From contig JAQVGI010000010.1 in assembly GCA_028696805.1 (NCBI GenBank), forward strand, positions 1 to 40,050: DNA of 40,050 nucleotides, in the 5' to 3' direction. Each line of letters opens with the position of its first letter. The stretch's first letter is position 1. Shown piece after piece: positions 25,823 to 32,876 of this stretch. Below the pieces are notes generated by a model, which was not told where the DNA came from, did not search any database, and worked only from the letters and a program-made list of their open reading frames with translations. The stretch is from Alphaproteobacteria bacterium. GTDB lineage: Bacteria > Pseudomonadota > Alphaproteobacteria > CAAHEQ01 > UBA3637. Made by a program: the position numbers and the translations under genes.

Positions 25823-27139
25823 ATGACAGACAAAATTGAATGCATCGACAAGCTGCCGCTGCGCGGCATGCGCGATTTTTTGCCGAAGGATTGGATTTTC
25901 CGCGCCAAATTGATGCGCGCATGGACGGAGGCCGCCGCCGAGGCCGGCTTCGTGCGCTACGAAACGCCGATCGTCGAGCCGCTGGCATTGCTGGAACGGA
26001 AAAGCGGCGAGGAAATCTCCGATCAAATCTACAACTTCGAGGACAAATCCGGCCGGAAAATCGCGCTGCGCCCCGAAATAACGCCGTCGATGGTCCGGAT
26101 CGTTTCCGGCAACCGCGACGCGTTCCCCGCCCAGGGAAAAGTCTACGCCATCGGGCAATGCTTCCGGTATGAGCGTGCGTCGCTGGGCCGGAAGCGCGAG
26201 CATTTCCAATGGAACATCGACATCGTCGGCACAGAGACGACCGCCGCCGAGGCGTATCTGTTGAAAACCGCGGTGGTTGCGCTGCAAAAGCTCGGCTTTT
26301 CGGCGGCGGATTACCAGATCCGCGTCAACAATCGGCAGCTGGTTTCCGACTTCCTCGCGACGCTGGGCATTTCCGGCGACGCGGCGGCGGCCGCGATGGG
26401 CGTGATGGATAAGAAAGACAAAATCGCGCCGGCGGATTTCCGCGCGATGCTGGCGGATATCGGGGTTTCGGACAAGCAGGCAGACGCCCTGACCTCCTTC
26501 ATGGCGGCGAAAAGCCTCGCGGATCTGGAATCGTTCGGCCTGGCGCAATCGCCGGCTTTGGCGGACATGAAGCGCTTCCTGTCGCACTGCGCCGCGCTGG
26601 GCATTTCGGAGTATGTGGCGATCGACACGGGCATCGTCCGCGGGCTGGTCTACTACACCGGCATCGTGTTCGAGGCGTTCGACACCCGGCGCAAGTTCCG
26701 CGCGATTTTCGGCGGCGGGCGATACGACCACCTGTTCGAAAAGCTGACGGGCAAGCCGGCTGCGGCCGTCGGATTGGGCTTCGGCGATGTGGTCATCGAA
26801 GAATTGTATAAGGACAAGTTTGCTGACCGCCTGTCGGATGCCGGCGTCGACATCCTGATCGGCTGCGGCGACGATGCGGCCGTGGACGACGCGCTGGCCG
26901 CGTTTCGGGCCGTTGCCGGAGAGGGTCTGGCCGCCGAATGTGACTTCAAGCCGGCGCCGCTCGGGAAGTTCCTGGCGCGCGCCAACAAGCGCGGCGCCCA
27001 CATCGCCGGATACATCGGGGATCAGGAACGCGCGGCCGGGGAAATCCTGTTCAAAAATATGGCCACCGGCAAACAGATTGCCGTCAAAACAGCCGATAAA
27101 ATGTTATCCGCCCGATTGAAACAACTGCTGGGCGAATAA
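25823..27139 (+). CDS. hisS: Histidyl-tRNA synthetase
   Basis: A 438-residue class II synthetase. Motif 1 region GMRDFLPKDW, then LRPEITPSMVRIV, motif 2 FRYERASLGRKREHFQWNIDIVG, the His-specific loop RGLVYYTGIVFEAF (most bacteria have RGLDYY, so the usual Asp is Val), motif 3 GGGRYDHL near 300, and a C-terminal anticodon-binding domain. The motif 2 loop (GRKREHFQWN rather than the common GRYREFHQ) resembles the divergent synthetases described in an alphaproteobacterial clade whose tRNA-His lacks G-1; tRNA-His is not in the window to test this. AGGGG precedes the ATG by 6 bases. Confidence 0.95.
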   Translation: MTDKIECIDKLPLRGMRDFLPKDWIFRAKLMRAWTEAAAEAGFVRYETPIVEPLALLERKSGEEISDQIYNFEDKSGRKIALRPEITPSMVRIVSGNRDAFPAQGKVYAIGQCFRYERASLGRKREHFQWNIDIVGTETTAAEAYLLKTAVVALQKLGFSAADYQIRVNNRQLVSDFLATLGISGDAAAAAMGVMDKKDKIAPADFRAMLADIGVSDKQADALTSFMAAKSLADLESFGLAQSPALADMKRFLSHCAALGISEYVAIDTGIVRGLVYYTGIVFEAFDTRRKFRAIFGGGRYDHLFEKLTGKPAAAVGLGFGDVVIEELYKDKFADRLSDAGVDILIGCGDDAAVDDALAAFRAVAGEGLAAECDFKPAPLGKFLARANKRGAHIAGYIGDQERAAGEILFKNMATGKQIAVKTADKMLSARLKQLLGE

Positions 27140-27144
27140 GCCCC

Positions 27145-27444
27145 TTACCGCCTTTCCCTGCCGCCCAGCTGATTATATTGGGTTCTGTATGCCGCCGCCA
27201 GTCCGGCCAGCTTGTGGACATTATGTCTGACGACCTTTTTCTCGAACCACGCGGGATCGACATTGGCGCAGCTGCACCAAAAATGGCGCGCGGCCTGCCA
27301 CGGGCCGGACGCATTGAACAAGAACTTTTCGGCGGCCAGCTCGTCCCTGACTTCGAGGCCCTTTTTCTTGGCCCCCTTCGCGCCGCCCATGTCTTCGATG
27401 GCCAAACCAAGGACGGCGGCGGCCAATGTTTCTCCCGCGCCCAT
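27145..27444 (-). CDS. Unknown 99-residue protein, last gene of a small-gene operon
   Basis: It starts one base after the stop of the upstream gene (TAACATG), so it is translationally coupled. The N-terminus is a Gly/Ala-rich helix (GAGETLAAAVLGLAIEDM), followed by Lys-rich GAKGAKKKGL. The core ARHFWCSCANVDPAWFEKKVV resembles small phage and prophage proteins that carry a W-x-C-x-x-A-x-x-DP-x-x-(V/F) core; I infer a phage-like origin only weakly. The convergent hisS stop is 5 bases away. Confidence 0.65.
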   Translation of the reverse strand: MGAGETLAAAVLGLAIEDMGGAKGAKKKGLEVRDELAAEKFLFNASGPWQAARHFWCSCANVDPAWFEKKVVRHNVHKLAGLAAAYRTQYNQLGGRERR

Positions 27445-27445
27445 G

Positions 27446-27679
27446 TTATTCCCGCCCCCGGATTTCCTGCATTTTCCACTTCGCTCGATCCATCGCAAAG
27501 CGTTTCCGCATTTGGGCACGGGACACTCCTGTCCAACCAGGTATCCCGTCTAGCAACGCCAAAACCTGAAAGCGAAACGCGCATTCCAGCCCCTTGTGAT
27601 ACAGCTGAACATTTTTGGGCGAAAACGGCAAGCCGGCCATATTCTGTGAAACCATCTTTTCAATTTCTGTATCTGTCAT
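27446..27679 (-). CDS. Small tandem paralogue 1 (77 aa), unknown
   Basis: Begins MTDTEIEKMVSQNM and shares with its two upstream neighbours the core NM-x-G-x-P-x-S-x-x-N-x-Q-x-Y, then KGxECAxR and a Leu/Ala helix. The C-terminus KMQEIRGRE is charged. AAGGAG sits 7 bases before the ATG. No known domain recognised. Middle member by conservation; its central region is the most divergent (GIPGWTGVSRAQM). Confidence 0.75.
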   Translation of the reverse strand: MTDTEIEKMVSQNMAGLPFSPKNVQLYHKGLECAFRFQVLALLDGIPGWTGVSRAQMRKRFAMDRAKWKMQEIRGRE

Positions 27680-27718
27680 GCACGCTCTCCTTTTTGATGG
27701 CTTTATCCAACACCCCTG

Positions 27719-27967
27719 TTATTCCCGCTCCACCCGCTCCCGGATTTTCCGCACATCCCGCCTGGCCGCGACAAGCGCCGCATGATGGCGCATCGCGGAG
27801 CCGACCGGCGCGGCATAGGCAAAAGCCGGGTCGTTCTGCATCTCCGCCAAATGATGGAGGCGAAGCGCGCATTCAATCCCCTTGTAATATATCTGAATAT
27901 TCCTGTGCGAATACGGCCATCCGTCCATATTGTGCGAAACCATTTTTTCAATTTCCGGCTGTGTCAT
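27719..27967 (-). CDS. Small tandem paralogue 2 (82 aa), unknown
   Basis: Begins MTQPEIEKMVSHNM, nearly identical at the N-terminus to paralogue 1, with core PYSHRNIQIYYKGIECALR and a basic helical C-terminus DVRKIRERVERE. AAAAGGAGAGG precedes the ATG. The 3' ends of paralogues 1 and 2 also share DNA (TGTTATTCCCGC followed by CCCGGATTT on the + strand), which suggests recent duplication. No function recognised. Confidence 0.75.
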   Translation of the reverse strand: MTQPEIEKMVSHNMDGWPYSHRNIQIYYKGIECALRLHHLAEMQNDPAFAYAAPVGSAMRHHAALVAARRDVRKIRERVERE

Positions 27968-27989
27968 GTTCCTCTCCTTTTCGATAAGT

Positions 27990-28244
27990 TTATTCGGTCG
28001 TTCGTGTCCGCTCCCGGACAGCCTGCATTGTCCGCTGGGCGGCGTCCATCGCCAAGTGCTGCCGTAGCCGAGCGCTGAACTGCGGCTTGTGATGCGACAC
28101 TTCTTTTTGCAACATCGCCAAATACTCGAAGCGGAGCGCGCACTCCACTCCCTTATAATAAATCTGCATATTTTCGCGCGAAAACGGCAAACCCTGCATA
28201 TTCCGCTCGGCCGCCTGTTCGGCTTCTTCCACCCACATCGTCAT
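27990..28244 (-). CDS. Small tandem paralogue 3 (84 aa), first gene of the operon, unknown
   Basis: Core RNMQGLPFSRENMQIYYKG followed by VECALRFEYLAMLQ, clearly homologous to paralogues 1 and 2; the C-terminus MQAVRERTRTTE is charged. The N-terminus MTMWVEEAEQAAER differs from the other two. A very good AAAAGGAGG site and a near-perfect promoter upstream imply real expression. Predicted to be small, helical and cytoplasmic. No family recognised. Confidence 0.75.
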   Translation of the reverse strand: MTMWVEEAEQAAERNMQGLPFSRENMQIYYKGVECALRFEYLAMLQKEVSHHKPQFSARLRQHLAMDAAQRTMQAVRERTRTTE

Positions 28245-28303
28245 ATCCGACCTCCTTTTGAGAACGCTATCCCCTATTGTTTTGTCAATCTTTTTATAGC
28301 CCC

Positions 28304-28331
28304 ATTATACACGATTTCGCGGCATTGTCAA
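28304..28331 (-). promoter_or_regulatory. Consensus promoter of the small-paralogue operon
   Basis: On the minus strand TTGACA (28331-28326), a 16-base spacer and TATAAT (28309-28304): both hexamers are perfect. The leader before ATG 28244 is about 50 bases and contains a second TTGACA without a -10. Confidence 0.85.
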
Positions 28332-28371: not shown

Positions 28372-28399
28372 TTGATAATTCGTCCCAAGGGCGTATAAT
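28372..28399 (+). promoter_or_regulatory. Promoter of the MccF-like peptidase gene
   Basis: TTGATA (28372-28377), a 16-base spacer and TATAAT (28394-28399), 25 bases before ATG 28425. The -35 context AAAAAGGTTGATAATTCG closely resembles the one at 34695-34712. Confidence 0.8.
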
Positions 28400-30993: not shown

Positions 30994-31287
30994 CTAGCGC
31001 TCTGTGCGTTTCAAAGCCCCATCGTGCCCTTGATAGGGGGAAAGTTTCCGAAGCATTGTATCAATCCGGCCGGTAAAGAAAGTCAGTGTCGGATCCTCTC
31101 GGGCGCCCATTTTTCCCCACCACCCCAGCTGGTGCCCCTCCCGCCATGTTATGCTTTCAAACACAGAGCATTTATATTTCGATTTCGCGACGGACAGCAA
31201 CGCCCGAACCAGGAAATTCGCGTATTTGCACCCCTGATGCTCCGGGCGGATAAAAACCTCGCCCTCGCACAGATGATTCCCGTCGCA
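30994..31287 (-). pseudogene. 3' remnant of a GNAT acetyltransferase
   Basis: From 31287 the frame reads 97 residues beginning CDGNHLCEGEVFIRPEHQG and continuing KYANFLVRALLSVAKSKY, a GNAT beta4/acetyl-CoA loop (EHQGCKYA) and following helix, to TAG abutting the cysS stop. Upstream in this frame is TGA, and there is no plausible start; the 5' half is replaced by the recombinase stub in another frame. It looks like an acetyltransferase gene cut by an insertion or deletion. Substrate unknown. Confidence 0.6.
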
Positions 31288-31366
31288 TCACGGCTTTAAA
31301 ATCCGTGTCTAAATTATCGTCCTTGGACTTTCGAACGTAAATAGCACATCTGACCGTTTCCATCAT
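31283..31366 (-). pseudogene. N-terminal stub of a large serine recombinase
   Basis: About 27 codons from ATG 31366 read METVRCAIYVRKSKDDNLD then TDFKAVM. This is the start of the resolvase domain of large serine recombinases (RCAIYxRKS, catalytic Ser at residue 14, then the NLDTDF stretch matching the usual GLEQEF). It follows DUF2924 with an ATGATG overlap, the usual pairing in alphaproteobacterial elements. The remaining ~500 codons are gone; the frame runs on to a stop at about 31172 as nonsense. Confidence 0.65.
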
Positions 31367-31653
31367 TTGCCTCCCAACCCGAAGAAGTAGCGTCCGGAGA
31401 GGCGTTGGCCGGTAATCTGATAGGTCACGGCCGAGAGTGAATTATACACTTTGCCATCCAATTCCACGCCATCGTCCAGGATGCGGATACGATATTGCTT
31501 GCCGTTATATCTTCTAAAAAGCTCTGTTCCCGGCGGAAAATCCTTTGGCCGAAGCAATTTGGAGTTCTCATTCAAGTTTTCTAGCAGTGCTTGCGTACTG
31601 CTCCGAAGGCCGCGGCATTGTAACTCTTGAACATCCCATTTTCTATAACACAA
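31363..31653 (-). pseudogene. DUF2924 protein, probably 5'-truncated
   Basis: The C-terminal ~75 residues match DUF2924, the small partner encoded before integrative serine recombinases: PPGTELFRRYNGKQYRIRIL, then DDGVELDGKVYNSLSAV and the final ITGQRLSGRYFFGLGGK. The N-terminal part (from MCYRKWDVQE) does not look like the family's usual N-terminus and lacks a good ribosome site, so the gene start has probably been replaced. TGA overlaps the recombinase ATG. Confidence 0.7.
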
Positions 31654-31754
31654 ATAGTGTTTCTAAAATGAACGGGATTAAGGTCGATTTGGGCTTGATT
31701 ATACAAATCATGTAAGAATTCTGCCGTAACAAAATCACCAACGCTTCTATACAT
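31581..31754 (-). pseudogene. Unidentified coding remnant, 57 residues
   Basis: A frame starting ATG 31754 and ending TAG 31583-31581 has a protein-like composition (MYRSVGDFVTAEFLHDLYNQ; HFRNTICVIENG) and remains open upstream of the ATG to beyond 31800. It overlaps the start of the DUF2924 frame and, upstream, the restriction-enzyme remnant on the other strand, so at most part of it is genuine. No ribosome site. I do not recognise it. Confidence 0.3.
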
Positions 31755-31769
31755 CGACAATGACTTTGA

Positions 31770-32105
31770 AAAATATATGATAGCGGCACGGAAAGCAAAT
31801 TTGCCAAGAGTTTGGATGCTGATCCTGATGTTCGGATGTTTTTTAAGATTCCAACGCGCTTTAAGATCAAAACTCCTATTGGGCCTTATACACCGGACTG
31901 GGCCGTTTATTTAGAAAAAAATGGCGAGCAAAAACTATATTTTGTGCTGGAGACCAAAGGGAGTATAGATATGTTTGATCTGCGCGGCGGGGAGAAAATG
32001 AAAATTCACTGTGGCAAGCAACATTTTGACGCTTTGGATAATGGCACACACTTTCCGGGAACCCCCGTTGAAAACTGGACTGAATTCAGAAAAACTATTT
32101 TATAA
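31770..32105 (+). pseudogene. C-terminal remnant of a type III restriction endonuclease (Res)
   Basis: In frame from 31770 (TGA just before it) to TAA 32103-32105, 111 residues read KIYDSGTESKFAKSL, DPDVRMFFKIPTRFKI, TPIGPYTPDWAVYLEKN, then KLYFVLETKGSIDMFDLRGG and KIHCGKQHFDAL. This is the PD-(D/E)xK nuclease domain at the end of type III Res subunits (PDWAV and ETK catalytic residues). Roughly 10 percent of a ~950-residue protein remains; helicase domain and Mod are absent. Confidence 0.75.
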
Positions 32106-32500
32106 TGGAAGAAAATTCAACCGCAGATCAAGAAAAAGTCTTCCCTTCCCGATTTGGCGACGTGGGTATCTGAGTTTTGCTTTAGAACGCTGAAAAGCCA
32201 AGTGACCCAATATACCAGCTTTACAAACCGTATCCCCTTCGTCGTCAATTATGCCCTCGAACCCGATGAAAAGAAGTTGTATGGGATGGCCAACGCTTAT
32301 CTCTCATTACCCACCAAAGCGGCTTATCCGGAAATGGATACTTATCAGCTTTCCTTGATGTTTCACCATACCTTATCTTCCTCGTCACAAGCGTTTGCCA
32401 ATATGTTGAATGCACCCATTGGGCGGGCACAAGGGGATGAGTGTGCCCTGTTGCAGGGAATGCAGGAATTGGCCAAAGATATGTTTTGGGGAATTTTGAG
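32106..32500 (+). pseudogene. Internal fragment of a SNF2/RapA-like helicase
   Basis: Directly after the Res stop and in the same frame: SLPDLATWVSEFCFRT, QVTQYTSFTNRIPFVVNYAL, PDEKKLYGMANAYLSLP and MDTYQLSLMFHHTLSSSSQ then AFANML. This resembles the segment between the two RecA domains of SNF2-type helicases found in defence islands (ER-x-LYxxxxxYL, then LxLxxRKLLASSxxA-like). No start, no Walker motifs; 3' coding signal fades near 32500, though the frame stays open into the tRNA. Likely one of several deletions that eroded the island. Confidence 0.6.
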
Positions 32501-32530
32501 GAAAAAGAGGGGAGTGCTTATAACAAAAGA

Positions 32531-32550
32531 CCTCTTGCTTCAACAAGAGG
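32531..32550. other. Hairpin at the right end of the island
   Basis: CCTCTTG (32531-32537) and CAAGAGG (32544-32550) with a 6-base loop; may be the old 3' hairpin of the helicase fragment. Confidence 0.4.
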
Positions 32551-32600
32551 ACTTCTTAAAAAACCGCGCGGAACTGCGCCGTTCAAGGGATATTTTGGAC

Positions 32601-32630
32601 ACAAAAAAAGGACGCATATCTATCGTCCTT
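32601..32630 (-). terminator. Intrinsic terminator of tRNA-Ala
   Basis: On the minus strand AAGGACG (32630-32624), a 9-base loop and CGTCCTT (32614-32608), followed by a T7 run (32609-32603), right after the tRNA 3' end. Confidence 0.85.
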
Positions 32631-32638
32631 GTGTCTTT

Positions 32639-32714
32639 TGGTGGAGGTAAGGAGGGTCGAACTCCTGACCTCTGCAATGCCATTGCAGCGCTCTACCAAC
32701 TGAGCTATACCCCC
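32639..32714 (-). tRNA. tRNA-Ala (anticodon GGC)
   Basis: The minus strand reads GGGGGTATAGCTCAGTTGG at the 5' end, anticodon arm CTGCA-ATGGCAT-TGCAG giving anticodon GGC (reads GCC/GCU), T arm with GTTCGA, and acceptor TACCTCC-A with CCA encoded. 76 nt in all; the acceptor pairs fully with one G-U. Its 3' end faces the decayed island. Confidence 0.96.
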
Positions 32715-32739
32715 ACGGGCGGCCGAACCGACAGCGCCT

Positions 32740-32767
32740 ATTATACATATTTTCGGGCGGATTGCAA
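32740..32767 (-). promoter_or_regulatory. tRNA-Ala promoter
   Basis: On the minus strand TTGCAA (32767-32762), a 16-base spacer and TATAAT (32745-32740), about 25 bases before the tRNA. Confidence 0.75.
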
Positions 32768-32876
32768 GAAAAAAATCGCGGGCGCAGGTGCGGCGCGGCC
32801 GGAAGCGCGGGCACGGCGCAGGCATGGATGCGCATAAACCGCGGGCGCAATATGAACGACATTGCGCAGCCGGCGC

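Follow-up and report, generated by a model that had tools for sequence, protein, structure and literature searches.

What are the four small genes that stand in a row behind a perfect consensus promoter in a reduced alphaproteobacterial genome, three of them evidently copies of one another? The window that we analysed, a stretch of 40,050 nucleotides, belongs to a 0.96-Mb genome (98% complete). A group of reduced-genome, fermentative gut alphaproteobacteria, the order Rs-D84, has been described (PMC12306168), and both the size of the source genome and a hydrogenase-like gene in the window would fit that description. We suggest, with a probability of about 0.45, that the locus is a lineage-restricted ORFan operon encoding small soluble binding proteins that combine a fixed core with a fast-changing C-terminal helix. 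The binding-protein part of this model comes from a structure prediction that used three sequences and from a by-eye reading of residue periodicity.

Layout and expression signals of the operon

The operon (27145-28331) consists of four minus-strand genes in the order p1-p2-p3-p4 behind a single consensus promoter. Its features, in the direction of transcription, are the following.

28304..28331, minus strand: sigma-70-type promoter, TTGACA-N16-TATAAT (-35 box at 28331-28326, -10 box at 28309-28304)
28250..28259, minus strand: p1 ribosome-binding site, AAAAGGAGGT
27990..28244, minus strand: p1, 84-residue paralogue (AF2 model with three helices, pLDDT 83.8, pTM 0.71)
28116..28239, minus strand: tandem repeat copy 1, in p1 (67% identity to the reference copy)
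27972..27981, minus strand: p2 ribosome-binding site, AAAAGGAGAG
27719..27967, minus strand: p2, 82-residue paralogue
27845..27968, minus strand: tandem repeat copy 2, in p2 (79% identity to the reference copy)
27685..27695, minus strand: p3 ribosome-binding site, AAAAAGGAGAG
27446..27679, minus strand: p3, 77-residue paralogue (TAACATG, with one base between its stop and the p4 start)
27557..27680, minus strand: tandem repeat copy 3, in p3 (the reference copy)
27145..27444, minus strand: p4 (P0001), a basic protein of 99 residues, unrelated in sequence to p1-p3; 5 nt separate its end from the stop of the convergent hisS

The initial annotation had described three tandem paralogues of 77-84 residues, a 99-residue protein and a TAACATG junction before the last gene, and all of these were found in place, p4 starting one base after the p3 stop. 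Judged by codon usage, ribosome sites and repeats, the four genes are real. For each gene, coding potential was above 0 in the annotated frame and negative in all others, and four ATG-initiated open reading frames of at least 77 residues on the minus strand were seen in none of 2,000 composition shuffles.

The promoter, which had been called perfect, matches the consensus at 12 of 12 positions, with 59 nt between the -10 box and the p1 start, and is one of just 14 such promoters in the 958,722-base genome, against 0 for a reversed-pattern control. Behind the other 13 we recognised by eye rplU-rpmA and a gene for an rpoH-like sigma factor, which is consistent with a strong housekeeping-type promoter. 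Strong ribosome sites had been claimed throughout; this holds for p1, p2 and p3, which have a AAAAGGAG-type site in common, but not for p4, whose site is the weak GGGGGCGGG and whose translation probably depends on coupling to p3. The strong expression signals that had been noted are thus present in the promoter and the p1-p3 sites, and the operon is probably strongly expressed, a level that we read from these signals. A search for an operator at the promoter gave nothing better than imperfect and widely spaced inverted repeats.

Several features around these signals deserve mention in their own right. The divergent ldcA has a promoter-like site of its own on the plus strand (28372-28399, 11 of 12 positions), 40 nt away from the operon -35 box, so that a single intergenic region would hold both promoters. 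At the other end, 5 nt separate the ends of p4 and the convergent hisS (27137-27147); as no good terminator was found in this gap or shortly after it, transcription of the operon may continue antisense into hisS. Two other perfect promoters precede genes for similar-looking, Pro/Ala-rich proteins (L070 and L075, starting MVIRIDMN and MTIRINMD), possibly a second lineage-specific paralogue pair.

Origin of the three copies

p1 is 45% identical to p2 and 45% identical to p3, and 26 positions are the same in all three, which bears out the shared core described earlier. A genome-wide search with p1 returned p2 (E 2.0e-16), p3 (E 1.2e-14) and no other match. At the DNA level there are direct repeats of 124 nt per gene, including the start region, at spacings of 288 and 271 nt, and further, shorter repeats lie over the ribosome sites and around the stop codons of p1-p3. 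Since the repeats reach the ribosome sites and the surroundings of the stops, what was duplicated is the whole gene with its leader; p1-p3 are the product of two tandem duplications of a unit of about 280 bp carrying its own ribosome site. A stretch of 49 nt spanning the p3 stop and p4 start (27429-27477) is 71% identical to that spanning the p2 stop and p3 leader (27702-27750), and the first codons of p4 may therefore derive from duplicated spacer. The possibility that p4 itself is a further, diverged copy of the p1-p3 gene was also considered and ruled out (hhalign probability 0.5%).

Distribution and homology searches

The genome set of the family is the same as that of the order, 43 genomes including the source. 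No relatives of p1-p3 were found in the 42 other family genomes (none congeneric), no real ones in 384 other class genomes, and none in 397 other phylum genomes, a set that overlaps the class set. Likewise, p4 had no real match in 56 relatives and the 384 other class genomes. Three weak matches were rejected: one (L006) is antisense to a malate-dehydrogenase-like gene and two, from the class genome set, either lie within an undecaprenyl-pyrophosphate-synthase-like gene (L056) or have a stop in frame (L057).

Family libraries were equally silent. Neither Pfam nor NCBIfam gave a match to the operon proteins in hmmscan, toxin and antitoxin domains included; none of the four proteins matched PADLOC-DB, even at E 1; and a PDB sequence search found no homologue. 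There was no significant match in PHROGs, where the best, phrog_30913 (unknown function) to p3 at E 0.029, and a further one, phrog_3377 (HNH endonuclease) to p1 at E 0.15, each touch a single paralogue and are at chance level. No relative was found by tblastn in phages and plasmids, or by pattern scans of genome collections and of viral contigs, the viral scans being built on short peptide patterns that distant relatives could escape. Degenerate motifs written by hand and scanned over viral contigs matched only out-of-context chance frames.

As far as the collections searched show, p1-p3 are a new lineage-specific protein family. The statement that they match no known family holds for Pfam, NCBIfam, PHROGs, PADLOC and PDB sequences. 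The immunity, antitoxin, anti-phage or phage-derived role put forward in the initial annotation gained nothing from these searches, which gave no PADLOC, PHROG, Pfam or NCBIfam match and no phage, plasmid or viral relative.

Constraint and structure

Divergence among p1-p3 is concentrated in the C-terminal half. Synonymous distances between the paralogues are 0.6-0.87, so synonymous sites are unsaturated, and the NG86 dN/dS values of the three pairs are about 0.65, 0.50 and 0.71, with bootstrap 95th percentiles of 0.83-1.15. With three paralogues, these overall values fit relaxed constraint and positive selection equally well; the duplication with divergence that had been proposed stands, and the 'diversifying' function attached to it does not follow.

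The two halves of the proteins were then set against a neutral expectation from a simple simulation of three paralogues (star tree, dS 0.6-0.75, without the real tree or codon bias), which for this reason we take as support for a constrained core and for nothing further. In the 31 columns of the core, 16 are identical in p1-p3, whereas 3.4-4.9 are expected, and this count was reached in 0 of 2,000 simulations; in the C-terminal 31 columns, 7 are identical against 3.5-5.2 expected (P 0.06-0.24). Regional dN/dS also counted toward constraint on the core, with no demonstrable constraint in the C-terminal half. We regard this as evidence for purifying selection among the paralogues on a predicted helix-loop-helix core, and change in the basic C-terminal helix appears indistinguishable from neutral.

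Structure prediction of the single proteins, another proposed check, was informative in part. The AF2 model of p1, for which the three paralogues were aligned as input, places helices at residues 2-14, 22-46 and 57-82 (mean pLDDT 83.8), and Foldseek found no match to it at E <=0.001 (best E 0.65 in the PDB and 0.68 in BFVD). That of p4, with a pLDDT of 57, was too poor for a structural search. In the p1 model, the invariant residues lie where helix 1 ends, in the GxPxS loop and along helix 2; a small-xxx-small pair (G31 and A35) can be made out by eye, as can the position of Q26, K30, E33 and R37 on one side of helix 2, which suggests that the invariant helix 2 residues are a packing or binding surface. 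The operon proteins are net basic (pI 8.0-9.9, GRAVY -0.76 to -0.32), have no hydrophobic segments and are predicted to be helical, and their C-terminal halves are basic.

p4 and the surroundings of the operon

The phage-like core ascribed to p4 came down to a 17-residue resemblance. FWC-x-x-A-x-x-DPA is common to p4 and a protein on IMGVR_UViG_3300037264_001498 (8 of 17 residues identical, pairwise E 4e-4) that sits beside a RusA-like gene (L059), but the rest of that protein is dissimilar and its context different. Moreover, it was retrieved by a deliberate search for the p4 motif itself, so the match carries little weight. The weak best PHROG match of the viral-contig protein is phrog_7024, and this profile recognised nothing in the source genome. 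We also rejected membership of p4 in a phage 'CxLAGxDP' family, as a search of 142 genomes gave chance frames only and phrog_7024 is absent here. No recognisable toxin domain was found in p4.

Housekeeping genes flank the operon, its neighbours being hisS, ldcA (an S66 LD-carboxypeptidase), cysS and an alpha/beta hydrolase gene. hisS was matched well in 11 relatives; unrelated genes follow it in 10 of them and the contig ends there in one, so the site of the operon is not conserved. Relatives of ldcA were also located. The neighbourhood survey that had been proposed yielded housekeeping neighbours at a site that is not conserved, and gave no indication of function. No mobile-element gene, integrase or phage gene lies inside or directly beside the operon, and no polymorphic-toxin gene was recognised adjoining it. 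On the far side of ldcA and cysS, some 3 kb from the operon, an AT-richer patch (31172-32837, GC about 0.41-0.48) adjoining tRNA-Ala contains fragments of a DUF2924 protein, a type III RE_endonuc domain and a recombinase-like N-terminus, and looks like a decayed mobile element.

What the operon may do

Three other explanations bear on the same observations. The chromosome could have captured a phage- or mobile-element-derived accessory cassette of regulators, counter-defence or anti-phage genes, an unlikely though serious alternative. The absence of the operon from the 42 other family genomes fits capture, as does a third-position GC of 0.57-0.75 in the operon genes against 0.76-0.84 in their neighbours, and the element remnants and the p4 resemblance to a protein beside a RusA-like gene point the same way. 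However, PHROGs, phages, plasmids and viral contigs gave no match, integrase and phage genes are missing from the operon and its immediate borders, which are housekeeping on both sides, and the p4 motif match came from a motif-directed search, while phrog_7024, the weak best match of the viral protein it retrieved, is not found in the genome.

We think it less probable still that the genes have a mundane lineage-specific housekeeping or host-adaptation role, for example in nucleic-acid binding or stress, with duplication for dosage under relaxed constraint. A consensus promoter shared with rpoH-like and rplU-rpmA genes, basic C-terminal halves and the closeness of the latter to neutral expectation would all suit such a role, but dosage alone leaves a fixed core with a changed third helix unexplained, and the relatives searched hold no homologue. 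A toxin-antitoxin or immunity set, in which p1-p3 would be antitoxins or immunity proteins and p4 the toxin or partner, is in our view improbable. The small co-directional genes, with p3 and p4 abutting, would suit it, and arrays of immunity genes likewise contain duplicated, diverging members; against this, toxin and antitoxin families went unmatched in every library, no polymorphic-toxin gene is recognised beside the operon and p4 has no recognisable toxin domain.

We therefore return to the lineage-restricted operon of binding proteins. Here p1-p4 would be non-catalytic proteins, small binders or adaptors. A common scaffold and contact surface would be provided by helix 1 together with the N-M-x-G-x-P-x-S loop and helix 2 (Q-x-x-x-K-G-x-E-C-A-x-R); within it, G31 and A35 would permit tight helix packing, and Q26, K30, E33 and R37 would make up a polar stripe. 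The third helix, basic and free to change, would determine the partner, or tolerate change in it, and three isoforms and p4 would be made together at a high level. No clue to function came from a partner, a structure match or the neighbourhood. Rapid divergence, together with the lack of these genes in every relative searched, makes a conflict-related target (a phage, a mobile element or a competitor) our leading guess. The most specific version, a three-helix binding family with a diverging recognition helix, deployed as an isoform set with p4 against phages or competitors in reduced-genome gut alphaproteobacteria, is one to which we give little credence at present.

Three diverging copies in one operon are an internal natural experiment that separates constrained from free residues, and we consider the locus of moderate interest because the copies reveal these parts. 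If the third helix is a recognition surface, a small genome would be retaining and enlarging a set of arms-race genes; if it is not, the operon would add one more well-documented ORFan family. Like other lineage-restricted (ORFan) small-protein families, p1-p3 are small, diverge fast, occur in tandem copies and lack homologues outside their lineage. The operon differs from typical families of this kind in its unusually perfect promoter and in the constrained 31-residue core of its proteins.
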